From Membranipora membranacea (taxonomy: Eukaryota; Bryozoa; Gymnolaemata; Cheilostomatida; Membraniporidae), in the NCBI GenBank assembly GCA_914767715.1, contig OU612074.1, positions 10,016,062 to 10,080,061 on the forward strand: a DNA stretch of 64,000 nt, written 5' to 3'. Positions 27,048 to 64,000 of this stretch are shown here, in pieces. The position numbers and the translations under genes are program-made. Under the pieces are notes generated by a model. It was not told the DNA's origin and ran no database searches. It was given only the letters and a program-made list of their open reading frames with translations. Every line of letters starts with the position of its first letter. Positions within the stretch are counted from its first letter, which is position 1.

Positions 27048-27352
27048 TTAACCTGGAATCTTTTCGTAAACATTCCCAACTACTGTCAAAACTTTTTGAG
27101 CAGTGTCACTATTCACTATTTTGTTGATTGCTGATATAAGATCAGCTTCAGTTTGAGTGACAGCTGGAAATGAAGATCAGAATGAATATTAAGGCAAAGC
27201 TTAAATGTTGGCCAGTTTGTATGGAATGATTGGTACGAAATAATTTAACAAAGATTTTATGCACAAAGGGGAAGAATGATTAGTAAATGTAAGAGGAGCT
27301 TTAACTTACTGAATAAAGCTACGAGGAGTGAGATAAGTGCAAGTACCTTCAT
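27048..27352 (-). CDS. Small secreted peptide C (52 residues)
   Basis: Minus strand: coding exon 1 is 27352-27310 (ATG to phase 1 donor GTAAGT), exon 2 is 27163-27048 ending TAA. The signal peptide starts MKVLALISLLVALF; the mature part is about 35 residues with EADL, NKIVNSD and VVGNVYEKIPG, predicted by eye to be an amphipathic helix. Homology to copies A and B covers both exons, the intron, the upstream intron and the noncoding first exon (ending about 27728 at a GTATGT donor). The segment that carries the TATA box in A and B is missing here: homology jumps from the 5' UTR straight to the palindrome arm near 27770-27790. The gene may be silent or use another promoter. Compared with A, both hydrophobic and polar positions have changed conservatively and the frame is intact. 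Confidence 0.75.
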
Positions 27353-27787: not shown

Positions 27788-30175
27788 AAAGTTATGTTTT
27801 TCTGTTGAGAAAAATGCAAGACTATTCGGTATCATTAGCTTGAGAGGAAAAGGATGAAGAAAGTATCAAACGTATTTAATAAAAATATCAATACCATCTA
27901 ACAATGATATTCCTGCCAAAATATGTTACTTCCAATGTAGAAGGTACATAGATCAGATATTATTGCAACTCTCAAAGAAATCATGGGGCTCATGATGAAG
28001 AAATATTTTTATATGAATAAAAAACAATTTTAAAATATAGTGCATGCAGATAGACTAGATAGCCTTTATTTAACAAAAAAGCTATTGGTGTGCTTTGCAG
28101 TGTAACACAAAGGTACACCGCTCATTTGTTGCGGTGTGTGGAGCGGTTTGGTTTGATGGTAAAGTTCCAAGGATGCCACTAATCCCCAAGAATCTTCTGA
28201 ATATATACAGCACTCCTGTCATGAAATAGCAGAGAATGTTTGCTACAGCAAACACTGACAAACTCTCCTGTTGGTATAGGATGGATAATCTTAATATCTT
28301 GCTTTTGAATCCTTTCAAGTGCCTTCAAGTTTTTCTTTGTACTCGAAAAAATTTTCAAAGAACCTGCTGAGAAACTGAATGTGATTACCAGGATCAGACC
28401 AGGTTGTGTTGATATTCTCTTACACAGGCCTGGGTAGTCATAGCAGTTGTACAACCAATTACTAGTTACATGTGCTACTAGTTTGTCAAAAGGGTCACCC
28501 ACCATGGAATGAGCCGAGGTCCGCGGGATCAGCAGTCCTGAATTTTACCACAAGACAACCCATCTGATGTATTTTCAATGAAAATTCCAACTAAATCATA
28601 ATATCAGATTCTCATTAGAATTAGGGAAAACAGAACTCTTCATATGGTTCAGTCTGCTGTTTTGCTTTTGCAGTCATGACTTGAAAAGCTGTATCCTTTT
28701 AGAGTATAAAACGGTTTTACCAGAGTTCAGCTGAAATCAGGTTAAGTAGTGTTGTCTCACATGTACCCATTCTATTTTTGCTTAGCAATTCAGATGTGCC
28801 AGCAATGTCACCATCAACATCAAAACCCTTACAACCAGTTACCAAACCATATTTATCACTTTTATTAAAAATGTATTGATACTAATAATGGAGATTTCAT
28901 TGATCAGGATTCTGGCAGAATTATTAACATGGCACTATGAAGCATTTGTGATTAGTGTCCATTTCCACTATTGCAAGCCAAGTAAAGTTCCGCTTTGTGA
29001 CTGATTGCAAATAATATGAAGATTTAATAAATGCAAATCAGTACAAACTTTGCTTGGGTTGCAAGTGGAAATGGGGACTAAACATAAATGCTTCATAGTG
29101 CCTTGTTAATGATTCTGCCAAAATCCTGATCAATAAAATCAGTAACAATTAGTATATCATATAATCATAAAAACCTTAAATGATAGCGATAAATGAGTTG
29201 GTAAATGGTTGGAGTGCTGGAAGTGGTTATTATTGAGGATGACTGCAATACATCATAACTGCTCAGCAAAATTGCTGGTAGGTGAAAATATTAAGAATTC
29301 ATCTGGATAGCTAGGGGTGGAATGTATAGGTGAAAACAAGTATCAGTACATGTGAAACAGCACTACTAAACCTGATTTTCGCTGAACTCTGGTAAATCCG
29401 GTCATGACTGCAAAAGCAAAACACCAGACTGTAGGATCCATATTGAACCTAATCGATGCCAAATCCGATAATTATTTCTGATATGAAAATAACATCAAAA
29501 GTTGTCTTTACAAAGATCTATAACACACCTAAATCTGTTTTCCTAACTCTACCATGAGAATGATTTAGTTGGTCTTTCCATTGCAAGCGTTTAAAATGGG
29601 TTGTCTTGGGGTAAAATTCAGTAACAGTAAATCCCGAGGACTTAGGCTCAATCTATTGGGGGTGGGGGAGTGGGTTGTTTTGACCAGCTAGCAGTACAGG
29701 TGACAAGTAAAGGGTTGTACAACTGCTATGCCTTACTGCGCCTAGTTGAGAGCCTGGTTTTCACATTCAGTTTCTCAGCAGGTGGTTTGAAAAAATTTTG
29801 AGTACACAGAAATGACTGTCTCACTATCCAACCATATTTTGCGATTCAGTTACAATAAAATGCCAGAAGGTGTACACTTGATAGAAGAGAAATGGATATA
29901 AGGGCCATAGATGTTGGCATTTTTGAGTGTCAATCAAATTACTGTCACATCTCGCATTTCCATCCTGAAGAAGCTTAGTCACTATTAGTAAATAATCAAC
30001 AATATTCACAGTCTCATCTACATTGGAACAAGGAGCTAGACATGATTGGAAGAAACATAATCCGGCAGGATATCATTGTATAGACAGTATTAACCATTTT
30101 TATTAAATACATCTAAACTTACTTCCTCTTTTTCCGTCCAAGCTAATGATCCCGGATTCAACAGAAATACCATAA
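27788..30175. repeat. Large palindrome between peptide genes C and A
   Basis: Left (27788-29008) and right (29032-30175) arms are imperfect reverse complements around a centre near 29020. Matching points: AGTTATGTTTTTCTGTTGAG (27790) with its complement near 30160; ATTAGCTTGAGAGGAAAAGG (27838) with its complement near 30140; CAACCTGG and GCTGAGAAACTGAATGTG (28365) with its complement near 29775; and GGCACTATGAAGCATTTGTG (28931) with its complement near 29095. The left arm also holds the LINE-like segment 27965-28338, which is absent on the right. Both arms contain a tRNA-like stretch (GGGTTGTCTTG...GGTAAAATTCAG). Peptide genes C and A lie outside it, reading away from each other. Confidence 0.85.
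27965..28338 (-). pseudogene. LINE-like relic, 3' end (copy 2)
   Basis: Minus translation gives LKALERIQKQDIKIIHPIP then DRSAVYIQKIL, then HPWN and STHRNK, separated by stops. This order resembles the end of LINE ORF2 proteins after the reverse transcriptase domain. The same sequence occurs at 44100-44487 (duplicate) and, more diverged, at 730-1190. Confidence 0.4.
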
Positions 30176-30317
30176 CTTTGTGTCTATTGGCCTCACTTGC
30201 ACTTCCAAGTGTTTCTCATAGAGTGTCTAATGCAGTCATAGATTCTAGTGGCTACTTAAGGAATATAGGAACTTTCAATAGCTTCCAGCTTATTGAATGC
30301 TCTACATATTTTGTTGT

Positions 30318-30325
30318 ATATAAAG
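30318..30325 (+). promoter_or_regulatory. TATA box of peptide gene A
   Basis: TATATAAA, followed about 30 bases later by the presumed start and a noncoding exon ending 30390 at a GTAAGT donor. The same arrangement recurs at 46489-46496 for gene B. Confidence 0.75.
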
Positions 30326-30786
30326 AGGCATCAACTTAGATAAGTTATCAGTCTTCTCAGTTCACATACTCCTATTGATCTCCAAATAAAGTAAGTTAAG
30401 TATACTGTAATATAGAGCTAACTGTGGTAACCTTTTGGAAAAAAAGTTCAATGTGTTCTATTGATTAATTACACATTGACTTGAACTTCTCCAACAAAAT
30501 ACATAGGTGCTTGGTACATTATCCTATTACCTATATCTGCAAGGGGTGGAATGATGTCAGGGAGGGAAACTGACTTTTAAAGTTTATCAATGAACTGTGC
30601 AACACATTCTGATCACTGAACACTAATATATTGGTTCTCATGTATATTTGTTCTCACGAGTGTAGGATGAAGTGATATTTGCCTGTGAATATGTCGACAA
30701 AGAGCTGCTAAAAATAGATTTTACTGTTTTTCACTGTGTTTCTTCTATAATCTTATCTCTCCAATCATCCTTTCTTTCAGATAATA

Positions 30787-31100
30787 ATGAAGGTACTCGT
30801 ACTCATCTCACTGCTCATTGCTGTGTTCGGTAAGTTAAAACTTTACACAAATATTACCCATCTCTAACCTTCAAATCATTCTCCCCTGAGTGGATAAAAT
30901 TTGATAAATTATTTTTTTTCGTTCCATAGAAATTTGCCAACATTCACACTTTGCCTTAATAGATAATCTGATCTATATTTTCAGCTGTTACTCAAACTGA
31001 AGCTGATCTTAAATCAACCATCAGCAAAATAGTGAATAGTGATGCTGGTCAAAAAGTAATATCTGTAGTTGGGAATGTTTATGATAAGATTAAAGGATAA
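30787..31100 (+). CDS. Small secreted peptide A (52 residues)
   Basis: Coding exons are 30787-30829 and 30985-31100. The first is preceded by a pyrimidine-rich CTTTCTTTCAG acceptor and ends in phase 1. The protein begins MKVLVLISLLIAVFA (signal peptide) and continues VTQTEADLKSTISKIV, NSDAGQKVISVVGNV, YDKIKG. The mature part of about 36 residues has no cysteine, is rich in K, S, V and I, and plots as an amphipathic helix, so membrane-active, structural or signalling roles are all possible; I recognise no family. A noncoding exon (about 30345-30390) lies upstream behind a TATA box. After the stop, a donor at 31128 leads to a 3' UTR exon from 31322 with AATAAA at 31414-31419. The protein is identical to copy B; only two synonymous sites differ. 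Confidence 0.8.
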
Positions 31101-31413
31101 CAAAACAAGTGGCAGCCTACTATCAAGGTATGTAATATATCTTATGAATATTGTAATATAAATGCCCTTGTGCTGTCATGAACAGAAATGACAATGAGGA
31201 CATATTTGACTACGAGGCATACGATTTTTAGTAAAAATATTACGATCATTAGTAATATGTGTGTCGAGTAAGAATGTAAAAATTTAATCTCAATGACCTA
31301 TGTTCCTTTTTCCTTTTATAGATGTCAATGACGCATATATGAGCCATATAGAAAGCAGGGAATCCTTTCATCCAGCATTATAAGATCCATTTTCATGCTT
31401 GACATTGCTAATT

Positions 31414-33830: not shown

Positions 33831-34076
33831 TGTAGAATATGACAAACTGAGTTATATGTAAGATACTGAATGTTGTATTCTCATGAACTGCAAAGCCTAA
33901 CTAAGGCAGTAGAAAAATCCTCTCCACACTACAATTGCAAAACAACAACTGAAACTTTATGAAAGAAACTGAAACTACATGTCACATGACTTGAGCATGG
34001 GATTATGGGATATCTCAACATAAAATAAAAGGGAACATAACTACAATTTACTAACAGCATATTAGCACAGATCACA
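33831..34076 (-). repeat. 3' LTR of Ty3/gypsy element
   Basis: The 246-base LTR begins TG and ends CA. It differs from the partner LTR at 37785-38027 by five substitutions and one 3-base indel. Flanked by GGAAG at 33826-33830, matching GGAAG at 38028-38032 (5-bp target duplication). On the minus strand a purine tract (ATGGGGAAG) precedes it. Confidence 0.95.
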
Positions 34077-34107: not shown

Positions 34108-34914
34108 TCAGGTGTCATAAATATTGTTACCGAATCGCTGAGGGGGATTACGGGCCCTGGCTTGGTGATCTTGCTCTCCGACACTCTCATTGTCACTGGC
34201 ATCACTAACACTTCCATGTTGTCCCGCATCGTCATCAGATGCATCCTCCCCACCAAGGTCACCTAGCTCATAGTCAATAGCGCCTTGAATTGATTGTCCA
34301 TTCTCTTCATTGGTTGGAGGGAAATGCTGGCGTAGCCTTAGGTCACTGACATGTCTTGGTGTGCTACCAACCTTAACAGCAGTGTTTGAGATGATAGCGG
34401 TTACCTCCCCAGTTGGCCATGTAGTCGTGCAGCGGGCACCAGGAGGTTTTACATACACACTGTCTCCAACACTGAATGGATTGAGATGAGTGTCTCTCTG
34501 TCGACGGAACGAGTTCCCTGTCACATCTGGCAATGACTGACCGCCGTATTGGTAGATAGATTCCGCCGGCGTGCTACCATCAACTTTTGCTGAAAAGTTG
34601 TACCAGTACACCATATCCTGTACTGAGCCACAGGAGCGAGCAACCATTCTCTTGATTGTTCTATGTTGCCGTTCTACTATGCCGTTTCCTTGCTTCTTGT
34701 AGGCACAACTGAATATATGGTCCACGTTCCACTTAGCCATAAATCCACGGAACCTCTCGCTCACATAACATGGTCCATTATCAGTTAACAGTTCTCTAGG
34801 AGGTCCACGCTCATTGAAGATTTGTCCTAGTAGTTTTATGACAGCTTCGGTCGTCTCATTGGTGAGCTGTTGCCATATAGAGAATCTGCTAGGTCCACAG
34901 TCTATTAGGGTCAA
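34108..34914 (-). pseudogene. Gypsy integrase core and C-terminal region
   Basis: This 268-residue frame has the DDE integrase pattern: LIDCGPSRF for the first Asp, LLTDNGPCYVSERF for the second and GIVERQHRTIKRM for the Glu. A chromodomain is not obvious; the tail is acidic. An in-frame TAA lies just upstream at 34945-34947 and separates it from the zinc-binding part. Confidence 0.85.
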
Positions 34915-35085
34915 GTAAGGACTGCCTCCATAATGAGTGATGTCTTATGCTAGTCTGAACCATGTCTCATCAACCGAAAGCTCACCATTTTCCCATCTTA
35001 CTGGTGCTGGATCAACACGTCTGCAGACTTCGCATTCCTTCAACGCTTGGACCACATCATCTTTTTGTACTGCATCGCCCCACTT

Positions 35086-35922
35086 TCACCTGGAAAGATA
35101 AAAGGTCCTTTCCACCCCCAGGTGGTTAGTATCATGAAGGTCACGCACAGCCTCAATAGAGTATCGGCCAACACAGCCAACTGATACAACCTGAGCTAGA
35201 GGTTTGAGCCATTTCTTAGGAACCCTTGTAAGTGCATCAGCTAGATTAGCCTCTGACTTGACCAATACCATCTCAACATGTAAGTCATACAACTCGATTA
35301 GTTCAGCGATCATACTCAACCTCCTCCTAGTAAGCAGCTCACCAAGACCTCCGACCTTAGGACGCTTGCTGTCATTTATGACCGATTTCACCCAGCCATA
35401 CACAGTAGCAGAATCTGTCATAACTTTCATAGACTTCAACTCCCATTTTATACCACAGCTCAAACCTCTGACTACTGCCTCTAACTCAGCAACATTGATA
35501 TGATTGCCATCATCTTTCCTCAACCAACAGCCATCCTCTACCATCACACCACCTATCTCAACTATCACTCCAACAGCTAGGCTGCTTGCATCACACCATA
35601 TCACTCCTTCCTCAGTACAAGGCACAGACCATACTCCACAAACAGGGTCTCTTTTGGCTAGCATTGCCTGAGTTTCAAGCAGCATCTCCTTTACGCGAGT
35701 GGGAACCTTGACATCCCAGTCACAATCACTTGCCTGTCTCTTCATAAAGCTGCATGCTACTCGTAGCCATCCACCTAAAGGATAATGCCCAGTGAGGCGA
35801 CCACACACCGAGAACAACTCTCGTTTAGTCACTACATCAGCTATGTCACCGTACTCATTGTTCCTACCCCAGACCAACTCATCACTCTCAGTAAGCTTTA
35901 CACGCAAGCACCCTAGCATCAC
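35086..35922 (-). pseudogene. Gypsy RNase H and integrase zinc-binding start
   Basis: A 278-residue frame. The RNase H part shows VIWCDASSLAVGV, HINVAELEAV and MTDSATVYGW; the end (LHDTNHLGVER) begins the integrase HHCC domain and then loses frame near 35086. Residues CEVC, the second half of the zinc site, are readable in another frame near 35020. Confidence 0.8.
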
Positions 35923-36943
35923 ACATTCTCTCAGGTTCCTTTGTCACCAAGCCATACTTTCGAAGATGGGCTCTCACACAATCCACTGATACTCTATCCT
36001 CATCCACTATGATATCATCTATGTAGTGATCAGTACCGTGTTCAACTGCACTATCCATTGACAGAACCTTACCAAGAACCTTTGACATGATTTTCGGTGC
36101 AACATTCAAACCGAAACCCATCCGTGTCATGACATACATTTTGTTCTTATAGCGAACCGCCTGGAACTTCAGCAGCTCATCATCAACATACAACTGCAGG
36201 TATGCCTTTTTGAGATCAAGCATAGAACAGTTTGAGCCAAAACTGCGCCATTTGCACAACTTATCCTGACATACAGCAACATCAACGCCTGGGTTGCTAC
36301 TGATATACTGATTCAACTCTTTCCCATAGTCCATAACAGGCCTTATCTCACTATCTTTGTTAGGCTGAAATGCAGCCAACATAGGTATCACACCCTTCAC
36401 TTCACTATGTTTTGAAACATCATGCTCTACTAACCACCCACACTCAATCCATGACTCAACCTCTCTCTCATAACCTGCCCTACATTAGGCACTGATATTG
36501 TACTCGCCTCTTTGATTTCTCAAAGTAGGCTCTTCATCCTTCCATTTCCAAGAGACCTTCCATTGATTTCTATCATAAATCGCTCTAAAATCAGTGTCTT
36601 CGACCTCAAGAGAAGGAACCACCGAAACTCCTAAAGCAGCAACCAAGGACATATGCACACCTTCATCAACATTGCCGAAATGAGGAACACTCCTCGAGCT
36701 CACAGTTACACCACCTAAACCTCTGACAGCATCCATACCTATTATTGCGGAAAATCCACATACCAGAGATGACGCGACAAAGCATCGTAATTTCACTAAG
36801 TCACGACATGTATATAACACCAAGTCAACTTCTCCTGCACACTGAGTAGTTTTGTCATCGAGCATTGTCACAACACTAGGCTTAGAGTTGTGCTTAGCAC
36901 CTACACTTTGATCACATGAGATGTTACAACGGTCCGCTGACAA
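35888..36943 (-). pseudogene. Gypsy reverse transcriptase region
   Basis: The frame reads from 36943 through a TAA at 36485-36487 to 35888. RT motifs are IRPVMDYGKELNQ, MLDLKKAYLQL, RMGFGLNVAP and YIDDIIV (catalytic DD). The wording RMGFGLNVAP/YIDDI is typical of a Ty3/gypsy branch found in several invertebrates. It overlaps the RNase H frame at 35888-35922, indicating a frameshift. Confidence 0.85.
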
Positions 36944-37801
36944 CCTGTGTCAACCAACGATCTACACTGAACGCCATTGATCAAAATGTTTATCACAGGT
37001 AATGGCGCCTCTATTGCTGCGATGCGGGGCGAGTATCCTACGCAGATACTGCCCCGGTCCCATTTCCCGATCGGTTTGGGCATTTGTTTGCCAGGTGATC
37101 GGGTGAATCACATAATATATAGCATCTTCGATCACGCTGAGATCGACCACTAACATACCGCTCCTTTTTCCTGTTAGGACATACCCGAGCTACATGCCCA
37201 TTACCAGAGCAGACGAAGCACTGTAGAGCTTTTACATTTGACTTTACACCTGCACAAGCAAAAGCAGAATTGCCTCCCCTTGATGCAAGCATTGCACGCG
37301 CTTTCCCTACTAACTCTGCGAGCCCCAACCTCTCAACATCAACAGTAGATTTTAACTGCATAGCTACATCAGAAGGTAGGCCTGATACAAATGCACACCT
37401 GACCAGAGGCTCACCATGATGTCCATGACCCATCAATACCACCAACCGCCATATATCAGCTAAATACACATCAACCGACTCATTCTCGATTAATACTCTG
37501 CTCTTCAACTCATCATACGCTGTAAATGGATCAATGCTGAAAGCAGTGGATAACTCAACTAATCATTCTTAGTTTCATCACTCAACTGTTGATACACAGA
37601 AAAGGCAGGACCTGACAAGAACAATGGCACAAACTTAGGCAGATCTGTCAACCCTTGCAACTGTGCTACCAGCTCTAGCTTCTCTGTCCAAACAAAGAAC
37701 TCACCACTTGTCTTCTGGTCCTCATAGCTCTTGATGATATCAGAACACCTTATAGCCTTGGATACCATGATGGCCGAAATAGCTTGTAGAATATGACACA
37801 C
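36901..37801 (-). pseudogene. Gypsy gag and protease region
   Basis: Gag runs from about 37771 (MVSKAIRCSD, just inside the LTR) to about 37038 across a frameshift. A CCHC knuckle reads CFVCSGNGHVARVC; a second, CYILCDSPDHLANKC, has an extra residue between its first two cysteines. A retropepsin site SLVDTGCQRTVV follows in another frame (36901-37083). Confidence 0.8.
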
Positions 37802-40750: not shown

Positions 40751-41049
40751 CATATGGTGGAGGGAGACCAACATCACAGCTGGATAGCCCAGCCAGTCAT
40801 AGAAACAAGAGAGGGACAGCAGGACCAAGACCAGCATCCAAGCAGGATCATCAAGATGGGCATAGAAACAAAAGAGCAATGAAACCGCTTACTCTGAGGT
40901 TTGACCCAGCGAGTTATAGCAACAAGAGAGCAATAAAATCAATGCCTGATATGATTCTGCCGCTGGTTATAGGAGCAATCAGCCACTGGGCTACAGAAAC
41001 AAGAGAGGAACAGAAGGAGCAATATTAGCATACAATAAGGAGCAACCAC
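40751..41049 (+). pseudogene. Frameshifted copy of furin-site peptide precursor
   Basis: This aligns with 42374-42600. It keeps YGGGRPTSQLDSP, then HRNKR, then GHRNKRAMKPLTLRFDPASY and SNKRAIK, before a one-base deletion (CCGCTGG versus CCGCCGGG, near 40961) shifts the frame to a stop at 41026. It has no signal-peptide exon. The order of repeat units differs from the intact gene, so unit number and order have been changing. The TA run at about 40663-40694 lies just upstream. Confidence 0.75.
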
Positions 41050-41052
41050 ATA

Positions 41053-41755: not shown

Positions 41756-41763
41756 TATAAAAA
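41756..41763 (+). promoter_or_regulatory. TATA box of peptide precursor gene
   Basis: TATAAAAA, followed by a noncoding exon (about 41788-41849) ending at a GTAAGT donor. Confidence 0.7.
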
Positions 41764-42053
41764 GCATGGGAGGGTTTTGGAGAAAGCTCACATCTCTGTA
41801 TAGTGAAACAGCAACACAGAGCACAACTTCATCTTTGATACACAAGTAGGTAAGTTTTAAGATAGCACTGAAAACTCAATCTAATCGACTTGCCTGTATG
41901 TATATCAGCTCAAAAAGTGAAACTACCTCCTTGGCATATCATGAACACTGGCATCTATTATTGTAATGGATATGGCATGTTGTATTCTCAACGCAATTCT
42001 CTGATCTCTCAGGTTCTGCCGTTCATAACATAAATATTGTCCCACTTTTTAGA

Positions 42054-42789
42054 ATGAACAAGGTTATACTTATCACTCTTCTTTTCGCCATCCTTGGTGC
42101 AAGTAAGTAATAAAGCGTTTTATAGAACACAGCTCAATTTGAATTATGCTAAGAATATATGAAAAGAACCCAGTAGCTGCGTTTAGTGACTGTTTTTTAC
42201 AGGTTGAGAAGCTAAATTAATAAAATAGAGTTAGAGAGTTATACAATATAGACAGTATGAATTGAATCTGTGTTTAACAAAAATCTGTGTAATATACTGG
42301 CAGTTCAAAATTATACCATTTCGTGTTTTAGGCGCAGTACATGGTGGAAAGAAGAAAACAGTTAACATTGTAGCATATGGTGGAGGGAGACCAACATCTC
42401 AGCTGGATAGCCCAAATGGTCATAGAAACAAGAGAACTCTGAGGTTTAACCCGGCACTGAGTTATAGCAACAAGGGAGCAATAAAACCTATGCCGAATAT
42501 GATTCTGCCGCCGGGTTATAGGAGCAATCAGCCACTGGGCTACAGAAACAAGAGCGGAACAGAAGGAGCAACATTAGCATCCAATCAGGAGCAACCAGAT
42601 GGTCATAGAAACAAGAGAGCAATAAAACCACTCAATTTGAGGTTTAAGCCACTGAGTTATAGAAACAAGAGAGCAATAAAACCACTTACTCTGAGGTTGC
42701 AGCCACTAGGTAATAGAAACAGGAGAGCATCAGTCGTCAGTTCACTGGAGGCCTGTAAGAAATCTAAGTTTTGTGCTGTACTCTTTTAG
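42054..42789 (+). CDS. Secreted multi-peptide precursor with furin sites
   Basis: Coding exons 42054-42102 and 42332-42789 join in phase 1, giving 168 residues. Exon 1 plus the junction encodes the signal peptide MNKVILITLLFAILGASA. The rest is basic and built of repeats ending in furin-type sites: HRNKR after residue about 50, GHRNKR, SYRNKR and NRNRR (R-X-K/R-R). Two neighbouring units are AIKPLNLRFKPLSYRNKR and AIKPLTLRLQPLGNRNRR; older degenerate ones contain SYSNKG and GYRNKS. After the last site comes ASVVSSLEACKKSKFCAVLF, whose CKKSKFC could form a disulfide ring. Processing would release several IKPL-type peptides and one cyclic peptide. Roles could be hormone-like, antimicrobial or matrix-related; I recognise no family. 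TATA at 41756, AATAAA at 42882-42887. Confidence 0.8.
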
Positions 42790-42881: not shown

Positions 42882-42887
42882 AATAAA
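42882..42887 (+). terminator. Poly(A) signal of peptide precursor gene
   Basis: AATAAA 93 bases after the TAG stop. Confidence 0.65.
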
Positions 42888-43764: not shown

Positions 43765-43960
43765 AGGTTTAGTTGAATCTCTTTATATACAATAAAATAT
43801 GTACACCACTCAATTAACTGGAAGTTCCTATATTCCCTAAAAAGCTGCTATTGGGTATAATCTATGACTGCATTAGCAGTCATCAATAATTGTCATAAGT
43901 AGTTAGTAATAAAGTAATAAACACCCGGAAGTGCAAGTAGGCCCATAGACACAAAGTTAT
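43765..43960 (-). promoter_or_regulatory. Mirror-image peptide promoter without a gene
   Basis: On the minus strand this matches the promoter of genes A and B: CACAAAGTTATGG, GGAAGTGCAAG, TATGACTGCATTAG, TAACTGGAAG and the TATA box TATATAAAG (TATATAAA at 43782-43789, minus). Homology stops shortly after the TATA box, and no signal-peptide exon follows on the minus strand. It forms the left end of palindrome B. Confidence 0.75.
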
Positions 43961-44099
43961 GGTTTTTCTGTTGAGAAAATTGCAAGACTATTCAGGATCA
44001 TTAGCTTGAGAGGAAAAGGATGAAGAAAGTATCAAACGTATTTAATAAAAATATCAATACCATCTAACAATGACATTCCTGCCCAATTATGTTACTTCC

Positions 44100-44487
44100 A
44101 ATGTAATTTATTGCAACTCTCACAGAAATCATGGGGTTCATGATGAAGAAGTATTTTTATATGAATAAAAAAACAATTTTAAAATATAGTGCATGCAGAT
44201 AGACTAGATAGCCTTTCTTTAACAAAAATGCTATTGGTGTACTTTGCAGTGTAACAAAAAGGTACACCGCTCATTTGTTGCGGTGTGTGGAGCGGTTTGG
44301 TTTGATGGTACAGTTCCAAGGATGCCACTGATCCCCAAAAATCTTCTGAATATATACAGCACTCCTGTCATGAAGTAGCAGAGAATGTTTACTACTGCAA
44401 ACACTGACAAACTCTCCTGTCGGTATAGGATGGATAATCTTAATATCTTGCTTTTGAATCCTTTCAAGTGCCTTCAAGTTATTCTGT
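44100..44487 (-). pseudogene. LINE-like relic, 3' end (copy 3)
   Basis: Duplicate of 27965-28338, with LKALERIQ-type and DRSAVYIQKIF-type segments on the minus strand. Not functional. Confidence 0.4.
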
Positions 44488-46488
44488 GTACTCGAAAAAA
44501 AATTTCAAAGAACCTGCTGAGAAACTGAATGTGATTACCAGGATCAGACCAGGTTGTGCTGATATTCTCCCACACAGGCCTGGGTAGTCATAGCATTTGT
44601 ACAACCAGTTACTAGCTACATATGCTGCTAGTTGGTCAAAACGGTCACCCACCATGGAATGAGCCCAGGTCCTCGGGATCAGCAGTCCTGAATTTTACCA
44701 CAAGACAACCCATCTTATGTATTTTCAATGAAAATTCCAACTAAATCATAATATCAGATTCTCATTAGAATTAGGGAAAACAGAACTCTTCATATGGTTC
44801 AGTCTGCTGTTTTGCTTTTGCAGTCATGACCTGAAAAGCTGTATCCTTTTAGAGTATAAAACGGTTTTACCAGAGTTTAGCTGAAATCAGGTTAAGTAGT
44901 GTTGTCTCACATGTACCCATTCTATTTTTGCTTAGCAATTCAGATGTGCCAGCAATGTCACCATCAACATCAAAAGCCTTACAACCAATTACCAAACCAT
45001 ATTTATCACTATTATTAAAAATGTATTGATACTAATAATCGAGATTTTATTGATCAGGATTCTGGCAGAATCATTAACATGGCACTATGAAGCATTTGTG
45101 ATTAGTCTCCATTTCCACTATTGCAAGCCAAGTAAAGTTCCGCTTTGTGACTGATTGCAAATAATATGAAGATTTAATAAATGTAAATCAGTACAAACTT
45201 TGCTTTGGTTGCAAGTGGAAATGGGGACTAAACATAAATGCTTCATAGTGCCTTGTTAATTATTCTGCCAGAATCCTGATCAATAAAATCAGTAGCAATT
45301 TATATATCATATAATCATAAAAACCTTAAATGATAGCGATAAATGGGTTGGTAAATGGTTAGAGCGCTGGAAGTGGTTATTATTGAGGATGACTGCAATA
45401 CATCAGAACTGCTCAGCAAAATTGCTGGTAGGTGAAAATATTAAGAATTCATCTGGATAGCTAGGGGTGGAATGTATAGGTGAAAACCAGTATCAGTACA
45501 TGTGAAACAGCACTACTAAACCTGATTTTCGCTGAACGCTGGTAAATCCGGTCATGACTGCAAAAGCAAAACACCAGACTGTAGGATCCATATTGAACCT
45601 AATCAATGCCAAATCCGATAATTATTTCTGATATGAAAATAACATCAAAAGTTGTCTTTACAAAGATCTATAACACACCTAAATCTGTTTTCCTAACTCT
45701 ACCATGAGAATGATTTAGTTGGTCTTTCCATTGCAAGCGTTTAAAATGGGTTGTCTTGGGGTGAAATTCAGTAACAGTAAATCCCGAGGACTTAGGCTCA
45801 ATCTATTGGGGGTGGGGGAGTGGGATGTTTTGACCAGCTAGCAGTACAGGTAACAAGTAATTGGTTGTACAACTGCTATGCCTTACTGCGCCTAGTTGAG
45901 AGCCTGGTTTTCACATTCAGTTTCTCAGCAGGTGCTTTGAAAATATTTTGAGTACACAGAAATGACTGTCTCACTATCCAACCATATTTTGCGATTCAGT
46001 TACAATAAAATGCCAGAAGGTGTACACTTGATAGAAGAGAAATGGATATAAGGGCCATAGATGCTGGCATTTTTGAGTGTCAATCAAATTACTGTCACAT
46101 CTCACATTTCCATCCTGAAGAAGCTTAGTCACCATTAGTAAATAATCAACAATATTTACAGTCTCATCTACATTGGAACAAGGAGCTAGACATGATTGGA
46201 AGAAACATAATCCGGCAGGATATCATTGTATAGACAGTATTAACCATTTTATTGAATACATCTAAACTTACTTCCTCTTTTTCCGTCCAAGCTAATGATC
46301 CCGGATTCAACAGAAATACCATAACTTTGTGTCTATTGGCCTCACTTGCACTTCCAAGTGTATCTCACAGATAATTATGTTATGATTATTGATGATGGCT
46401 AATGCAGTCATAGATTTTAGTGGCTACTTAAGGAAAATAGGAACTTTTAATAGCTTCCAGCTAATTGAATGCTTTACATATTTTGTTG

Positions 46489-46496
46489 TATATAAA
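46489..46496 (+). promoter_or_regulatory. TATA box of peptide gene B
   Basis: TATATAAA, with a noncoding exon ending 46562 at a GTAAGT donor. Confidence 0.75.
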
Positions 46497-46959
46497 GAGG
46501 CATCAACTTAGATAAGTTATCAGTCTTCTCAGTTCACATACTCCTATTGATCTCCAAATAAAGTAAGTTAAGTATACTGTAATATAGAGCTAACTGTGGT
46601 AACCCTTTGGAAAAAAAGTTCAATGTGTTCTATTGATTAATTACACATTGACTTGAACTTCTCCAACAAAATACTTAGGCGCTTGGTACATTATCCTATT
46701 ACCTATATCTGCAAGGGGTGGAATGATGTCAGGGAGGGATTCTGACTTTTAAAGTTTATCAATGAACTGTGCAACACATTCTGATCACTGAACACTAATA
46801 TATTGGTTCTCATGTATATTTGTTCTCACGAGTGTAGGAATGAAATGATATTTGCCTGTGAATAAATCGACAGAGAGCTGCTAAAAATAGATTTTACTGT
46901 TTTTCACTGTGTTTCTCCTATAATCTTATCTCTCCAATCATCCTTTCTTTCAGATAATA

Positions 46960-47275
46960 ATGAAGGTACTCGTACTCATCTCACTGCTCATTGCTGTGTT
47001 TGGTAAGTTAATACTTTACACAAATATTATCCATCTCTAACCTTTGCAAATCATTCTTCCCTGAGTGGATAAAATTTGATAAATTATTTTGTTTCGTTCC
47101 ATAGAAATTTGCCAACATTCACACTTTGCCTTAATAGATAATCTGATCTATATTTTCAGCTGTTACTCAAACTGAAGCTGATCTTAAATCAACCATCAGC
47201 AAAATAGTGAATAGTGATGCTGGTCAAAAAGTAATATCGGTAGTTGGGAATGTTTATGATAAGATTAAAGGATAA
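46960..47275 (+). CDS. Small secreted peptide B (52 residues)
   Basis: Coding exons 46960-47002 and 47160-47275 encode exactly the same protein as gene A, MKVLVLISLLIAVFA plus a 37-residue remainder ending YDKIKG. The only coding differences are two synonymous changes (TTC/TTT before the first intron, TCT/TCG in the second exon). A donor at 47303 leads to a 3' UTR exon starting 47554, with AATAAA at 47646-47651. The intron of the 3' UTR has about 80 bases not present in A. TATA promoter and noncoding exon are preserved, so both A and B look expressible. Confidence 0.8.
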
Positions 47276-48092
47276 CAAAATAAGACGCAGCCTACTATCA
47301 AGGTATGTAATATATCTTATGAATATTGTAATATAAATGCCCTTGTGCTGTCATGAACAGAAATGACAATGAGGACATATTTGACTACGAGGCATACGAT
47401 TTTTGAGATTGCACATAAAATTTATTGAAAAGAGACTATGGGAAGTTATCTCTGTCTGTATTTTAGTCAGTATTAGACACATCATTATTAGTAATATGTG
47501 TGTCGAGTAAAAACGTAAAAATTTAATCTCATTGTTCCTTTTTCCTTTTATAGATGTCAATGACGCATATATGAGCCATATAGAAAGCCGGGAATCCTTT
47601 CATCCAGCATTATAAGATCCATTTTCATGCATGACATTGCTAATTAATAAACAAATAAGTAAATAAATTATACGACACCAAAGATCTTTTTCAACAAAAA
47701 ATTTCAGTAGATATTCAAGCAACTTCTAGTTTCCTGAGATCTACAGTATTAAGTAAGGTAGCACCATCAAGAGGTGATAGTAATACAACTAAAAACAAAA
47801 AACTATGGTAAAAAAATCCAAAAAAAACTTAACGCCTAGAGGTTTTGCAATCTAGTTATTTCGAAGTGCGTAAGAGAAACTAAATATGATGACAGTCAGT
47901 GTACCGTGAATTTGATCAGTCAGATCGGTTATCAAAAAAAAATTTAATCAATCAACTCACAACAAATGGAAAGTTGAACCAATAACAGGATTCAGAAAAG
48001 AAGCAGAACCTGAATCTGTAAATTGCTTTAACAGTAACAAGCACTAGCGAACCAAAGTATACATTTAACTGTCTGTGCATCACTAAGTTTGT

Positions 48093-48323: not shown

Positions 48324-50035
48324 ACCTGTAAAACAAGACACAAAGATGGATGAAAAATAATTAAGGACCAACTTTTTGACTCAGGGATGTTGTTTGCTTT
48401 ACCATTATTTGTTGTTCCATCGATCCAAAACTAAACAGCTTCTTTTACTGGTCATATTGGCATTTTTTGCTGGTTTAATTGCACTGCAGCACCCATTGTA
48501 TCATGAACACGATACCAATGAGCAATACTTCTCGACTAGACAAAAATAATTTAATCTACACCGTATCAAACATTATTTGCAATACTTACTTAGAGTATAG
48601 GGTGGTTTCAGCTCTCTCAATGTGTGGCTGCTTCACGGCGGCTTAGATCCTTTGCCATTCACTGGGAGTTGTGCCTAATTGGCCATAGCTGCATGTCTTT
48701 GTGCGGTACCGGGCTATTGTGTTTTGTGTCCAATTATCTGCTCTGATGGATTGATTTGGCGAGCAAATTCCTCAAGCCTTTAGTTGCCCTGTGAGCCTTG
48801 GTGTTCGAGGTTTTCTTCACAGGCTCAGTAAACTTGAGTTGTATAAACTTGAACTATATTTATCTATTTTTTCTGGGCAAAGGTAATATTTGGGGATTTA
48901 CTAAAGGAGCAAAAAGGTATGTTATAAATTAAATTCTGTTTTCTGTAGGTTTAAATAATTCGACTCCAAGTTCACTTGACTCAATATCTCTTTTATTTCT
49001 CGGTACATTCAAAATTAATTAATAGGGTTTAGATTTGTGTTTATTTGATCTTTAAGTATATTGTTCCTTATAGTTTGCGTTAAATTGAATAGTTAATTAT
49101 TGACGGCATTTTTATTGAACGAGGCACATTTTTATGCACCACATTAATTGCACCATTTTCTATTCAAGTTTCACGGAACCTTCGGGGATTAAAATAAACC
49201 TGTGATCCTGTGATACCATCAGTAATCTCTAAAATCTAATGTAAAATAATCAAGAAGCCTTGTGGTCCAGAACAGTGAAACTTTATTTCTGGATAATGTC
49301 TAGTGCTAGAAGCTGACTCAACACTCTCGCCAACCCACACACCAACCACAGAGTAACTCACTCCAGCGTCTACACTATCTTGACGCCTACTCTACCAGTC
49401 AGCTTGTGATGCTGTACAGTTATACCTCAGCTAGCAGAGCATTCAGCTCCCTCAACATACTCTGTACGTCAACATCAGAGAGCCACAGGATTCGTACCGC
49501 TATACCACCTAAATCCTGTACTGCTAGCACAGCACACCTAAGCACTAGTCTCTAGATACAGCTGTCGTTATACCCCGCTGTATCCTCTTGTCTTGTGTGT
49601 CGACTAACCCCTTCTCGTCGTGTCGTTATTAACGTCTACGCCACGTTACTCTACTGCCGGTGATCTCGCTGCTGATGCTTGCTAAACACTAACTGTAACT
49701 GTATACGATAACCTCTTCGATTATTTATTAATCCACCCTGTTGCTGACGGAGAGCTGCTGGAGATACTTTTTACACTTCACTGATACCAGGTGCGTGCCT
49801 CGTTAATTTTTACAGCCGTCAATTTTTTGTACTAGGACTAGGTTAGGGCTTTTTGTACAAGCTCGCCTTTTTCATCCAATAGTGCAGATTTTTTGGCTCA
49901 TGCACTCTAGTTGCTGGGCTGTACTCGGTTGTGTGGTCTTGGTTGTTGGGTATTGCTTTCAGTGTGTGTCTTGGTATCTTGCCTCTGTGGAGCAGTTGTG
50001 TTTCTTGCCAATAATCTTTGTAGGTTTGTCTCAGC

Positions 50036-52237
50036 ATGGAGGGCTTTAGTATCTCAAGGTCAGAGCTCGATAGGTTGGGGGCAAAGGCGCTCAGGGATAT
50101 TTTGAAATCAAAGAATTTACCGGGTGGCGGCAGAAAGAAAGTGCTTATTGATAGAATTATTCAAAACTCCTCACCGTTTCAAATCGATTCAACAGGAGGT
50201 GATTTTGAAATGGCATCTCAATCTAGATTTTTTGCTGCTGCTCATAGCACTGACCAACGAGCCAAAGTATTTTCATCAGGCATTGTACAAGTAAATCAAG
50301 GTTCAATAGGCGGTGCTGAAATTCAGCAACCAGCATCACAACATGATGTTAGGGGTCGGCAGCAATCTGATAATGGTTGCAAAGACCAACAGATGCCTGG
50401 TCGTAATGATTATAATGATCAACATGTGCAACAAGGTCAAAATCATAGGCCGCCCAATGGTAGTGTAAATGGCGAACAGCAGCAAAATCAAGTAGGATCA
50501 AATCAATCTGCCGCGCCCATGGATTTTACATGCCAGCAAGATGGTAGGATAAGCATGCATATTTTTCCATCCAATGCTATTCATCAAAACAATGGAAACA
50601 ATGGATGGCTTTTGAATGGTCAAGCTGTGTCATTGGGACACTCGTTTCAGGCTAATCAACCCAGACCAGCTTTAGCTTTCACCAGTAACAATGAATGGCT
50701 TATTCGTGACTCAAGTAATTTAGCTTCAGCTATTCATGATGGACCAGTAAATAACAATGGGTGGCTATCCAATAGACAAGCTCAATCTAGGAGTAACATG
50801 CATGGTCGTAATAATGCTGCTCATGATACACAGACTGTAGCTTCCACTGCTGTTGCAGCAGCAGTCAATAGTAACCCATGGTTGTCACATGTTAGTATTG
50901 CTGTACCTTCGCATGGTGTTCACTTTAGCTCACCTCCACATGACATTCGCAGACCCCCATCCCCTATCATGGACTTGCATCAAAGTCGTATATCACCCCA
51001 GTTAACAGAACCAAACTGGCATTCTAGTACATATGTAGTAGGGGACACAACTCCAAATATAGAATCAGATTATGCTATGTCAAGTAGACAAGAGTTGGAT
51101 TATGCCATCGCAGAGTCAATAGAGGCTAGTAAAATGCCTCTGGAGGAGCCATCAGTATTTCAGGGTGATTTGCTCAAGTACAATCGCTGGGCCAAGTCAT
51201 TTGATGATTTTATATCTAAGCGAAAATGGCCAACAGCCAGTTCTAAGCTTTTCTACCTGGAAAAGTATACTGATGGTGATGCTAGAGAGCTAATCGAGCA
51301 TTATCTAACCAGAAATTCTGAGCAAGCATATATCGAGGCATGGAAAGACCTCAATCAGACATACGGTAATTCTTATCTAATTGCACAGGCATACAAGAAA
51401 AAACTGTTTACCTGGACAAAAATCACAAACAGAGATAATGTCGGTATCAAAAAGCTGGCAAATTTTCTCAAGCAATGCCTAGCAATGAGAGAGGAAAACC
51501 CAAACTTTGGATTTTTGGAGGAGTGTGATCGTAATCAGGACATAGTCAAGAATCTTCCTGATTATATGGCATTACGGTGGAACAATAAAGTAACAGGGTA
51601 TCAACTATCTCATGATCAGGTGTTCCCACCGTTCTCTCAGTTTGTTGAGTTCATGGTTTTTGAATCCCACTCAGCAAACAATCCAGTTACTTCCCAGAAT
51701 GCTTTGAAGGGTGTGGGTAATGTGGTTTCATCAGCTAAGAGTGATCAATTGAAACCTAAATCAAAATCTAACCAAAGTGCCGTCAGTCATAAGACAGATG
51801 CTGAATATGATTCGCCTAAGAAAAAATGCTGTCCTTACTGTAATTCTGATAATCACATGTATATGTCTAAGTGTGCAGATTTTAAGTCACTCTCTGTGAA
51901 GCAACGCTTTTCTACAGTGAAAACTCTCAAGGCATGTAATCGCTGTTTGTTAGCCGATCACTTCTTAGCTAAGTGTACCAGGGACTGGAAATGTGGAGTT
52001 TGTAAAAGCTCGTCACATCATACTCTGTTGCACAGAGCTAAGGGTGGTCCAAGTGGAGAGACAACTCCGCCTAAAGCAGTGTCTCAGCTTCTCAATAGCA
52101 CTTGTACTGATACCATTACTGATGCTCAATCTCGACTGTTTTGTAAAACTGTACCAGTGTGGATATCCACTAGTCATAATACACGCAAGGAGTATTTGAC
52201 ATATGCTCTGCTGGACGATCAATCCAACAAAACATAA
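50036..52237 (+). CDS. BEL/Pao gag with start of protease
   Basis: A 733-residue frame. It opens with a SAP-like helix-loop (LDRLGAKALRDILKSKNLPG, residues about 9-28), then a long Q/N-rich region, a gag core with FQGDLLKYNRWAKSF (about residue 375), and a cysteine cluster CCPYCNSDNHMYMSKC ... CNRCLLADHFLAKC ... CGVCKSSSHHTLLH typical of BEL/Pao gag. It ends inside the protease motif YALLDDQSN at a TAA; the protease continues in another frame from 52252. Confidence 0.85.
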   Translation: MEGFSISRSELDRLGAKALRDILKSKNLPGGGRKKVLIDRIIQNSSPFQIDSTGGDFEMASQSRFFAAAHSTDQRAKVFSSGIVQVNQGSIGGAEIQQPASQHDVRGRQQSDNGCKDQQMPGRNDYNDQHVQQGQNHRPPNGSVNGEQQQNQVGSNQSAAPMDFTCQQDGRISMHIFPSNAIHQNNGNNGWLLNGQAVSLGHSFQANQPRPALAFTSNNEWLIRDSSNLASAIHDGPVNNNGWLSNRQAQSRSNMHGRNNAAHDTQTVASTAVAAAVNSNPWLSHVSIAVPSHGVHFSSPPHDIRRPPSPIMDLHQSRISPQLTEPNWHSSTYVVGDTTPNIESDYAMSSRQELDYAIAESIEASKMPLEEPSVFQGDLLKYNRWAKSFDDFISKRKWPTASSKLFYLEKYTDGDARELIEHYLTRNSEQAYIEAWKDLNQTYGNSYLIAQAYKKKLFTWTKITNRDNVGIKKLANFLKQCLAMREENPNFGFLEECDRNQDIVKNLPDYMALRWNNKVTGYQLSHDQVFPPFSQFVEFMVFESHSANNPVTSQNALKGVGNVVSSAKSDQLKPKSKSNQSAVSHKTDAEYDSPKKKCCPYCNSDNHMYMSKCADFKSLSVKQRFSTVKTLKACNRCLLADHFLAKCTRDWKCGVCKSSSHHTLLHRAKGGPSGETTPPKAVSQLLNSTCTDTITDAQSRLFCKTVPVWISTSHNTRKEYLTYALLDDQSNKT

Positions 52238-52251
52238 ATGTCACTAGTAGA

Positions 52252-54609
52252 ATGCTAAATAAAATCGGCGTGGAGAAAGAAAAATCAACGCTGAAAATCT
52301 CAACAATAAGGTCAGTTGATAAGAAAGTGCATTGTGATAGTACTCCTTCTCTGAGAATTAGGGGTTTTTACAGTAGTGACCGTATACAGCTACCCAGGAC
52401 ATATGCTAGAAGTCCAATACCATGTGCTATTTCAGACATACCCACATATGAAAATGTTTTTGGTATTCAGCAATTATCATGCATATCTAAATATATTCCA
52501 CCACAGCAGAAATGCGAGGTAGGATTACTCGTAGGTCGTGATTGTTTTGATGCTATGGCTCCTGTAGGAGATGTTATTCCTGCCCCTCTGGGTGGTGCTT
52601 GTGCCATGAAAACCAAGCTCGGATGGTGCGTTATTGGCCCTGACAGCAGACAAGCCAGCAACACATCAGATGAGATTGGTTACAGTCACAACATTTATAC
52701 TCTCGAAGATGCTCTGAACTCTGTAAGTAATATTCAGTCGCCAAAACAAGCTATATCGTGTAAAACTGAGGTATCAGACATCACTCTATATGAACTCATG
52801 AACATGATTGATGGTTGTGAATTTGTCGATCATGCCGACAGTCAATCAATTTCACAGGATGATCTGAAATTTCTCAAAATTCTAGATGATGGTAATCACC
52901 AAGACAGCTCAGGTTACTATGTCATGCCTTTACCGTTTAAACATGGTGAGACAACTCTCACATCTAGTAAACAACCAGTCTTGAAGAGATTTTATGGTCT
53001 TTTATCACAGTTCAAAAGGCGAAATGCAGAATTCAGACAGAAATATACTGAGTTCGTAGAAGGTATAATATCTAGGGGTGAGGCTGAACTAGTACCAAAA
53101 TCAAAACTCGAAAGCCGGGAGGGTTGGTTTTTACCTCATCACGGTGTTTATCATAAAAAGACCGGAAAAATCAGAGTCGTATTTGACTGTGGTGCGCAGG
53201 CTAATGGTGTCAACCTGAATGATGAGTTATTACAAGGCCCTGACCTAAACAATTCTCTGCTGGGAGTGATATTGAGATTTCGGCAAAAACCAGTAGCTTT
53301 ATCTTGTGACATAGAGAAGATGTATCATCGCTTCAGGGTAGTAAACGAGCACCGTGATTATCTTCGGTTCTTTTGGCTTGATGATCAGGGTAATCCAGCT
53401 GTATATAGAATGTGCGTCCATATTTTTGGCGCTAGATCGTCTCCCAACTGTGCTAAATATGGTCTCAATAGGCTAGCAATAGACTATGGTGAAAATTACC
53501 CACTAGCTCAGGAGTTTATTCAGCGTAATTTCTATGTTGACGATGGTTTATGTAGTGTAAATACCAGTGATGAAGCCATCGAACTTCTGAAGCAAACTAG
53601 GTCATTGTGTAAAAATTGCAATCTTCATGTACACAAGCTTCTATCCAATCAACCTCAGGTACTGGAAGCCTTCCCTCAAGAGGATACAAATCTCAAACCA
53701 CAGAACAATATTCAGCTGCTCGACTCAACAGAGCGAGCTCTAGGCATGCTATGGGCCTTGGACTCGGATTCATTCACTTATAAATATCAGCCTGTACCTG
53801 CTAAGAAAATTACTAGGAGGTCTGTGTTAGCTAATGTAGCTTCGGTATACGATCCTATGGGTCTCATAAGTCCTCTTATTCTGCCAGCTAGAGTAACGAT
53901 ACAAAACTCATGTAAAGACGGTTTGAGTTGGGACCAGGAACTTGATCAAAACATGTGTGATAAGTGGAAAATCTGGGACTTCGAAATCGCCAAAATCTCC
54001 AGTCTGTCCATTCCCAGGTGTATTCACCCACACTCATTCATGCCAGTCAAACAAGAAATCCATACATTCGCAGATGCTAGCGAGCTAGGGTATGGAGCAT
54101 GCTCATATGTTAGGACATTTGATGAAAATAATGCTGTACATTGTAGCCTAATGCTAGGAAAAACTCGTGTAGCTCCGTTAAAGAAGCGTATTACCATTCC
54201 TAGGCTAGAGTTACAAGCAGCATTACTGGCTTCTAAGCAATGTAATTCTCTCAAAACTGAACTAGGCATACAGTGTGATAGTTATCTCTGGTCAGACTCA
54301 AAAATCGTCTTAGGCTATATCAATAATGACCCGAAACGGTTCCAAACATTTGCTGCGAATCGTGTGACTCAAATCAATGAAATCTCGTCGAAATCCCAAT
54401 GGGATTATGTGAATACTAGTTTGAATCCTGCAGATATTGCATCCCGTGGATTAAGCACGGTAGAATTCCTGAACAATTCTATGTGGTTTCATGGACCCAA
54501 CTTCCTGTGGGAGACCGATCCATTACCTAGCTCAAACTGTTCATTTACTGTTGATCCTGATTACTTGGAGCTGATACTGGAGCTGGTACTTATACCATGT
54601 CAGCTGTGA
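52252..54609 (+). CDS. BEL/Pao pol: protease end, RT, RNase H
   Basis: A 785-residue frame. First comes the protease-to-RT region (LLVGRDCFD, KTKLGWCVIGP), then RT with VVFDCGAQANGVNLND, LSCDIEKMYHRF, FGARSSPNCA and NFYVDDGL (catalytic YVDD near 53532-53543), then RNase H (HTFADASELGYGA, RLELQAALLA, LWSDSKIVLGYI, NPADIASRGLS). The open frame is long and conserved, so damage seems young. It stops where the integrase should begin. Confidence 0.85.
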   Translation: MLNKIGVEKEKSTLKISTIRSVDKKVHCDSTPSLRIRGFYSSDRIQLPRTYARSPIPCAISDIPTYENVFGIQQLSCISKYIPPQQKCEVGLLVGRDCFDAMAPVGDVIPAPLGGACAMKTKLGWCVIGPDSRQASNTSDEIGYSHNIYTLEDALNSVSNIQSPKQAISCKTEVSDITLYELMNMIDGCEFVDHADSQSISQDDLKFLKILDDGNHQDSSGYYVMPLPFKHGETTLTSSKQPVLKRFYGLLSQFKRRNAEFRQKYTEFVEGIISRGEAELVPKSKLESREGWFLPHHGVYHKKTGKIRVVFDCGAQANGVNLNDELLQGPDLNNSLLGVILRFRQKPVALSCDIEKMYHRFRVVNEHRDYLRFFWLDDQGNPAVYRMCVHIFGARSSPNCAKYGLNRLAIDYGENYPLAQEFIQRNFYVDDGLCSVNTSDEAIELLKQTRSLCKNCNLHVHKLLSNQPQVLEAFPQEDTNLKPQNNIQLLDSTERALGMLWALDSDSFTYKYQPVPAKKITRRSVLANVASVYDPMGLISPLILPARVTIQNSCKDGLSWDQELDQNMCDKWKIWDFEIAKISSLSIPRCIHPHSFMPVKQEIHTFADASELGYGACSYVRTFDENNAVHCSLMLGKTRVAPLKKRITIPRLELQAALLASKQCNSLKTELGIQCDSYLWSDSKIVLGYINNDPKRFQTFAANRVTQINEISSKSQWDYVNTSLNPADIASRGLSTVEFLNNSMWFHGPNFLWETDPLPSSNCSFTVDPDYLELILELVLIPCQL

Positions 54610-55640
54610 GGTCTGCTGGATTTTGGGTGGTTGGTTTGAGTAATGCGGTCTCATCTCTGATTTACGCATGCTCATTTTGTCGTCGACTCAGGAGGCCAGT
54701 AGAATGTCAGAAAATGGCAGACCTCCCACCTGAGCGTGTTGAAGTCGCTACCCCATTCACACATGTAGGATGTGATGTTTTTGGCCCCTTTCCCATAAAA
54801 GATGGTCGAAAACACATGAAGAAGTATGGGCTAATAATCACATGCTTGTCCAGTAGAGCTGTACATATTGAAACTCTAGACGATGTCTCTACTGACTGCT
54901 TCTTGCAGAGCTGGCGCTGCTTTGTGGCCCTAAGAGGCAATGTCAGTTCTGTGCGTTGTGACAATGGCACTAATTTTGTTGGTGCAAACAACGAAATTCT
55001 GAAACTCTATGATGAAATGTCTCAAGATAGTTCATTCAGTAAATATCTACAGGAACACCACTGCGAGTTTACTTTCAATACCCCTCACGCTAGTCATATG
55101 GGCGGGTGTTGGGAAAGAATGATTAGGACAATACGCTCTATGTTCAATGGTTTGACACCACATATGCATAACTTCAGTAGTACATCACTGCGTACTCGAC
55201 TATATGAATGTATGGCAATCATTAACAGTCGCCCTCTGACGGTTGTCAGCTCAGATTGTAAACCTTTATCACCGAATGATTTACTTCATATGAAGTCCTC
55301 TGTTATTCTACCTATGCCTGGTAATTTTGATGATGGCGACATCTATGCCAGAAAGAGATGGCGTGCAGTACAGCTGCTAGCCAACAAATTCTGGAATAGA
55401 TGGCGTAAGGAATATGTGCAAAATCTTCAGCAGAGACAGAAATGGGTACAATCCAGAAGAAATCTCGCAATCAATGACATCGTTATTCTCAGTGATAACT
55501 GTGGTCGACGTTTTTGGAAACTAGGAAGAATAACCGAAGTTTTATCTAGTGAATATAATCTAGTCAGATCTGTCAAAGTTCTGTGTTATGATGTAATCAG
55601 TAACAATCACTCACACTTTAAGGCAGTCACAATTATGTAA
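54597..55640 (+). CDS. BEL/Pao integrase, N-terminally deleted
   Basis: A 347-residue frame overlapping the previous one in a different phase. It has CSFCRR and MADLPPERV, then the DDE core: HVGCDVFGPF, VRCDNGTNFVGA and GGCWERMIR, then the C-terminal KRWRAVQLLANKFWNRW and the small barrel (NDIVILSDN). The histidine part of the HHCC zinc site is missing at the junction, so the element should not integrate on its own. Confidence 0.85.
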   Translation: MSAVRSAGFWVVGLSNAVSSLIYACSFCRRLRRPVECQKMADLPPERVEVATPFTHVGCDVFGPFPIKDGRKHMKKYGLIITCLSSRAVHIETLDDVSTDCFLQSWRCFVALRGNVSSVRCDNGTNFVGANNEILKLYDEMSQDSSFSKYLQEHHCEFTFNTPHASHMGGCWERMIRTIRSMFNGLTPHMHNFSSTSLRTRLYECMAIINSRPLTVVSSDCKPLSPNDLLHMKSSVILPMPGNFDDGDIYARKRWRAVQLLANKFWNRWRKEYVQNLQQRQKWVQSRRNLAINDIVILSDNCGRRFWKLGRITEVLSSEYNLVRSVKVLCYDVISNNHSHFKAVTIM

Positions 55641-55693
55641 TGGATAAAGATATCTGATTGCACAGATGTACACTAATTATACTTTTTACGTAT

Positions 55694-63892: not shown

Positions 63893-64000
63893 CTAAGATT
63901 TGCAAAAACTTCAAGTAAAAATTTGAATTCAAAAGTAAAAATTGATGCGAAAAGTGATCTAAGATCTAAGTTTATGGCTCATTTACATTCAATAATTGTC

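Follow-up and report, generated by a model that had tools for sequence, protein, structure and literature searches.

Rana-box peptides of frog skin carry a cationic two-cysteine ring near the end of a processed peptide. Other secreted peptides are released several at a time from one precursor. In excerpts of its description, Baramicin A of Drosophila is processed at RXRR furin sites, which gives tandem peptides and a C-terminal peptide of a different kind (PMC8423362). In apidaecin precursors, one peptide is present several times over, according to part of another report (PMC11678341), and neuropeptide precursors are portrayed, in passages of two papers, as having a signal peptide, repeats, and basic cleavage sites (PMC9004410, PMC9525235). 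Here we describe a gene of comparable layout, its family, and a second peptide family interleaved with it. The gene lies in a window of 64,000 nucleotides, which is the whole stretch of DNA that was analyzed and to which the positions below refer unless a contig is named.

Results

Positions 42054 to 42789 of the window encode a predicted secreted precursor of 168 residues, and its start, stop, and splice phase were verified (Table 1). The initial annotation of this locus had proposed a two-exon gene for a protein with a clean signal peptide, repeated units closed by RNKR or RNRR, two adjacent 18-residue IKPL-type units, and a last segment containing CKKSKFC. These protein features were borne out. 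The hydrophobic stretch of the signal peptide is coded by a separate exon and has a predicted helix at residues 2 to 16, there are four R-X-K/R-R sites (residues 48, 109, 127, and 145), the two IKPL-type units occupy residues 113 to 130 and 131 to 148, and CKKSKFC is present as described. The proposed coding frame and splice phases were also exact, but the gene has three exons and not two, as a non-coding 5' exon precedes the coding ones. That exon and the TATA box had been overlooked, as had two decayed boxes (SNKG at residue 62 and RNKS at residue 88), a truncated paralogue upstream, the 14 other places of the family (this upstream fragment included), and the second, interleaved peptide family. 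Two kinds of unit recur in the precursor, namely, a spacer kind that mostly ends in GH-RNKR and a kind of the form IKPLxLRxxPL, and the protein contains 31 K/R against 5 D/E. An AlphaFold2 model made from the single sequence without an alignment has no folded domain (mean pLDDT, 54); its helices are that of the signal peptide and a short one of 4 residues close to the end. This model would fit a precursor, as weak evidence.

Table 1. Features of the precursor gene, of its neighbors, and of the remainder of the window
Feature	Positions	Strand	Remarks
Truncated tandem paralogue fragment	40751-41051	+	No signal exon found; one frameshift
TATA box of precursor gene	41756-41761	+	Transcription start placed ~30 bases downstream (predicted)
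Non-coding first exon, without ATG	41786-41849	+	5' end predicted; donor GTAAGT at 41850
Signal-peptide exon	42054-42102	+	MNKVILITLLFAILGA and first base of Ser; donor GTAAGT at 42103
Phase-1 intron	42103-42331	+	229 bases
Exon for all predicted processed peptides	42332-42789	+	Stop TAG at 42787-42789
Unit 1, N-terminal, spacer-type	42337-42435	+	VHGGKKK...SPNGH-RNKR
Units 2 and 3	42436-42555	+	TLRFNPALSY-SNKG and AIKPMPNMILPPGYRSNQPLGY-RNKS; cleavage boxes decayed in window copy
Unit 4, spacer	42556-42618	+	GTEGATLASNQEQPDGH-RNKR
Unit 5	42619-42672	+	AIKPLNLRFKPLSY-RNKR
Unit 6	42673-42726	+	AIKPLTLRLQPLGN-RNRR
C-terminal peptide	42727-42786	+	ASVVSSLEACKKSKFCAVLF; two cysteines five residues apart
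Polyadenylation-like signal	42882-42887	+	AATAAA
Family B copy	30787-31100	+	Exons 30787-30829 and 30985-31100
Family B second copy	46960-47275	+	Exons 46960-47002 and 47160-47275
Family B divergent copy	27048-27352	-	Exons 27352-27310 and 27163-27048
33-nt tandem repeat	11310-11540	+	Within a 236-codon stop-to-stop frame
CAP-superfamily secreted protein pieces	17980-21207	+	One over Pfam cut-off, one just below
Second LTR-type element	34108-37562	-	Integrase core, zinc knuckle, weak reverse transcriptase; flanked by 226-nt direct repeats at 33831 and 37785 (97% identical)
BEL/Pao-type retrotransposon frames	50024-55640	+	SAP, DUF1759, Pao peptidase A17, DUF5641; reverse transcriptase below cut-off
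Fibrinogen-related domain protein pieces	61977-63978	-	Two over cut-off; perhaps N-terminal membrane anchor

Further members of the precursor family were sought in the genome from which the window comes, 339 Mb in 18 contigs. One of the 24 rows obtained (E = 0.686) was set aside, and the other 23 represent 15 family places, all within 263 kb of one contig (C10, 9.940 to 10.204 Mb). The signal exon is found in 10 of the 15. Nine of these loci have an open frame of 141 to 204 residues; L003 has an open frame but GG at the expected acceptor, and L013 is frameshifted near its end, leaving eight of the ten without a visible coding or splice defect. The remaining five places are fragments: L007, in which a stop is present and the pattern used found no signal exon, and the partial copies L011, L012, L014, and the one upstream of the window gene. 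The 3' end of this last fragment adjoins a dispersed repeat with further copies at 55693 and 59921, and exactly 78 bases (26 codons) of it are absent from the window gene. Counts of IKPL-type units downstream of the final spacer differ among the nine open models: L009 has one, L008 has four, and each of the seven others has two.

When the promoters and splice sites of the ten loci with a signal exon were aligned and compared by eye, the GTAAGT donor of the non-coding first exon was kept in all of them. The acceptor AG of the signal-peptide exon ends at 42052 or at 42012; the former is present in 10 of 10 loci, and the latter is absent from L010 and L013. TATAAA is found in nine of the ten loci (shifted by two bases in one) and is missing from L008, and L004 is without part of the non-coding first exon. 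A scan for signal exons (acceptor, ATG, hydrophobic stretch, and donor, criteria that were set after these genes were known) returned 4 places in the window and 0.15 on average in 40 simulated windows; when the acceptor condition was dropped, the corresponding figures were 6 and 5. Run with the same criteria on 264 kb, the scan yielded 23 places, of which 9 belong to the precursor family and 14 to the neighbor family, with no others.

This neighbor family, here called family B, encodes a predicted secreted peptide of 52 residues, MKVLVLISLLIAVF-AVTQTEADLKSTISKIVNSDAGQKVISVVGNVYDKIKG, and resembles the precursor in having a signal exon and an intron of phase 1. A genome search returned 20 rows, 17 of which lie in the precursor array, at 17 places interleaved with those of the precursor family. 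Three weak matches on contig C1 (G000:C1:39529974-39725581; frames of 77 to 79 codons; E, 0.04 to 0.94) were set aside and possibly represent a distant relative. Family B is intact in all 14 copies of the 264 kb, and its 11 distinct sequences give a dN/dS of 0.35 (p = 0.018, with the neutral silent fraction borrowed from the precursor family). A duplicated block that contains family B (43953-47404, equivalent to 27788-31229) is 96% identical between its two copies; the precursor gene ends about 1.2 kb to the left of the second one. The upstream DNA of the precursor and that of family B have no shared match at E 1e-4. The resemblance between the two families is limited to the plan of the gene and the signal peptide.

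The cleavage boxes of the precursor were compared with chance and among copies. In 100,000 shuffles of the mature protein, four or more R-X-K/R-R sites appeared 4 times, and four RN[KR]R sites never did. Both figures make the pattern look more improbable than it is, since the boxes have codons in common (AGAAACAAGAGA recurs) and thus arose by DNA duplication; they show no more than that it is not a random string. Among the nine open models, R-X-K/R-R is kept in 42 of 52 aligned boxes, or in 39 of 43 without the often-lost third box (the tally was made from the alignment table, and two further boxes of L008 fall outside the 52-box numbering). The second box, at residue 62, has the motif in seven of nine models, the exceptions being the window copy and L002, which is nearly its twin; the third, at residue 88, has it in three and has lost it in six. 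The window copy has thus lost two of its six boxes. At the 18 key residues of the six boxes, 8 distinct replacement changes were counted, compared with 36 at the 126 other residues; the box residues change no less often than the remainder, which argues against strict conservation. The boxes sit at joints between unlike units. No amidation Gly precedes any of the 52 aligned boxes in the nine models, so amidated products are not expected. The genome contains 17 convertase-type P-domain matches (proprotein convertase family) over the cut-off, counted exon by exon.

For the nine models, the pooled dN/dS is 0.56, with values of 0.23 for the signal peptide, 0.59 for unit 1, 0.73 for units 2 and 3, 1.05 for the spacer, 0.58 for the last two units, and 0.60 for the C-terminal peptide. 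Counted as distinct changes, there are 26 silent and 53 replacement changes where 27% silent is expected under neutrality, and purifying selection was not significant (p = 0.15). Sets of units gathered by patterns that fix some residues gave dN/dS values of 0.68 for 16 distinct AIKPL-type units (8 silent, 18 replacement; p = 0.41) and 1.48 for 11 spacer units (4 silent, 19 replacement; p = 0.91). The window gene compared with the upstream fragment alone gave 0.5, again not significant (p = 0.22). There is no in-frame stop among the 79 changes of the nine models, which has a neutral probability of about 0.05; this value is subject to the reservation that the models had been selected as open ones. 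Gaps in exons are whole codons and gaps in introns are 1, 2, and 4 bases, a pattern that is partly built in, as only open models were aligned. Constraint on the precursor family is suggested by these sequence comparisons, with the selection test itself not significant.

A Pfam search of the precursor gave one CBM32 match, below the cut-off, an NCBIfam search gave nothing, and PDB sequences gave one weak match (E = 1.7). There were no confirmed relatives in prokaryote contigs or viral contigs, and probing with the Pao-type integrase frame and the dispersed repeat revealed no contaminating host DNA. In the literature, peptide strings returned matches through "aikpl" alone, apparently unrelated by title, and nothing for five other strings. 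Searches for Rfam families and for tRNAs found none. The initial annotation had called the precursor undescribed, which is compatible with all of the searches of protein families, PDB sequences, contigs, and literature.

It had also raised the case of an animal without a nervous system. This is contradicted by at least 146 matches in the genome to the Cys-loop receptor ligand-binding domain and by one match to a vasopressin-type neurophysin, in a frame of 141 residues. The Cys-loop matches lie on contigs C1, C4, C5, C6, and others; the strongest are mostly single frames of about 440 to 540 codons, and they form local clusters. We know of no oxytocin/vasopressin peptides outside Bilateria. In excerpts of one paper, such peptides are described as common to Protostomia and Deuterostomia (PMC9545775), and Cys-loop receptors are, in the sections seen of another, not reported in Placozoa, Porifera, or Ctenophora (PMC4795631). 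Because of the Cys-loop receptors and the neurophysin match, the genome is most likely that of a bilaterian. The 18 contigs agree in number with the 18 chromosomes of three demosponges, an agreement without value as proof. The Cys-loop and neurophysin matches led us to reject a sponge or another nerveless animal, on which the precursor family has no bearing; the parts seen of the sponge papers (PMC9004410, PMC9525235, PMC6850559, PMC13418204) are without bearing here once that reading is dropped.

Discussion

The multi-peptide precursor that was proposed from the first reading of this gene is backed by its anatomy and by the multigene family to which it belongs. We consider it moderately probable that it is a furin-processed precursor in an array shared with family B and that it yields effector peptides from a gland, epithelium, or blood cell, with a role in defense, mucus, or another exocrine function. 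A furin-type convertase would cut the precursor after the R-X-K/R-R boxes, and a carboxypeptidase would then take off the basic pair. The products would be short, cationic, and non-amidated: two 16-residue AIKPL peptides, the Cys-containing C-terminal peptide, and longer spacer pieces. The calculated net charge of the trimmed peptides is +4 for AIKPLNLRFKPLSYRN and +3 for AIKPLTLRLQPLGNRN, and that of the 20-residue Cys-containing peptide is +2. Transcription, cleavage, trimming, the disulfide bond, and the role of the precursor are what we infer from the gene and its family. By composition, a reading of the AIKPL units as proline-rich antimicrobial peptides is not supported, with 2 Pro in 16 residues, and their amphipathicity compared with shuffles is not significant (0.057 at best).

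The initial annotation had placed a prohormone among its suggestions. A multi-copy neuropeptide or peptide-hormone precursor classically has similar peptides repeated amid basic sites and spacers, and in this reading the AIKPL peptides would be one ligand and the Cys-ring peptide a second. The neurophysin match, the many neurotransmitter-receptor matches in the genome, and the few residues at which the last two units and the C-terminal peptide vary among the nine models also speak for it. We nevertheless find such a precursor unlikely, given that an amidation Gly is found at 0 of 52 boxes and that the boxes are of a four-residue furin type and not plain KR. Because of this lack of amidation, the array with its ten loci, five fragments, and decaying copies, the varying unit number, and the interleaved family B, we infer a secreted effector set more than a hormone.

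Some of this variation could be read in other ways. A structural, mucus, egg-coat, or biomineral protein, in which the basic boxes are binding motifs and the chain is uncut or cut once, would be consistent with the varying unit number, a spacer dN/dS of at least 1, the few acidic residues, and box residues that are no more conserved than the remainder. The position of the boxes at joints of unlike units and the persistence of R-X-K/R-R in 42 of 52 make this quite improbable in our view. The five fragments, a frameshifted copy, another that is without its acceptor, and a selection test that is not significant could instead indicate a decaying, little-used family, whose copies are turning into pseudogenes and whose frames are open by recency. 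We regard this as also quite improbable, because all ten loci retain both donors and the acceptor that precedes the ATG and the nine models are without an in-frame stop, a point on which the choice of open models has to be kept in mind.

A bolder possibility, which we hold only tentatively and think rather doubtful, is that the array is a lineage-specific combinatorial peptide arsenal. Two unrelated-looking families would have been co-amplified and interleaved, and with units and boxes varying from copy to copy, the loci would release different peptide sets that act together with family B. The array offers a compact system for studying the gain and loss of units and cutting sites in multi-peptide precursors, as ten neighboring loci with one to four units and with intact or decayed boxes lie beside a family that evolves under constraint. 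It would also add an unrecognized secreted-peptide family to a bilaterian lineage.

Judged from Pfam, NCBIfam, PDB sequences, and prokaryote and viral contigs, the precursor family is probably new, and its layout is of a known kind. With neuropeptide precursors it has the signal peptide, repeats, and basic sites in common; it differs in its many-locus array, its furin-type boxes, and the lack of an amidation signal. The ring of Rana-box peptides resembles in layout the putative one of the C-terminal peptide, but here a hydrophobic tail follows the ring. In layout, apidaecin and other multi-copy insect proline-rich antimicrobial peptides are alike in their short, cationic, proline-containing copies, spacers, and variable copy number, whereas the present units have only the two prolines and no Pro-Arg-Pro motif. 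Baramicin A is similar, also by layout, in being a secreted precursor with furin-type sites, related tandem peptides, a distinct C-terminal peptide, and a duplicated locus; compared with it, the present family has a larger array, a C-terminal peptide that contains cysteines, and a second peptide family interleaved with it.
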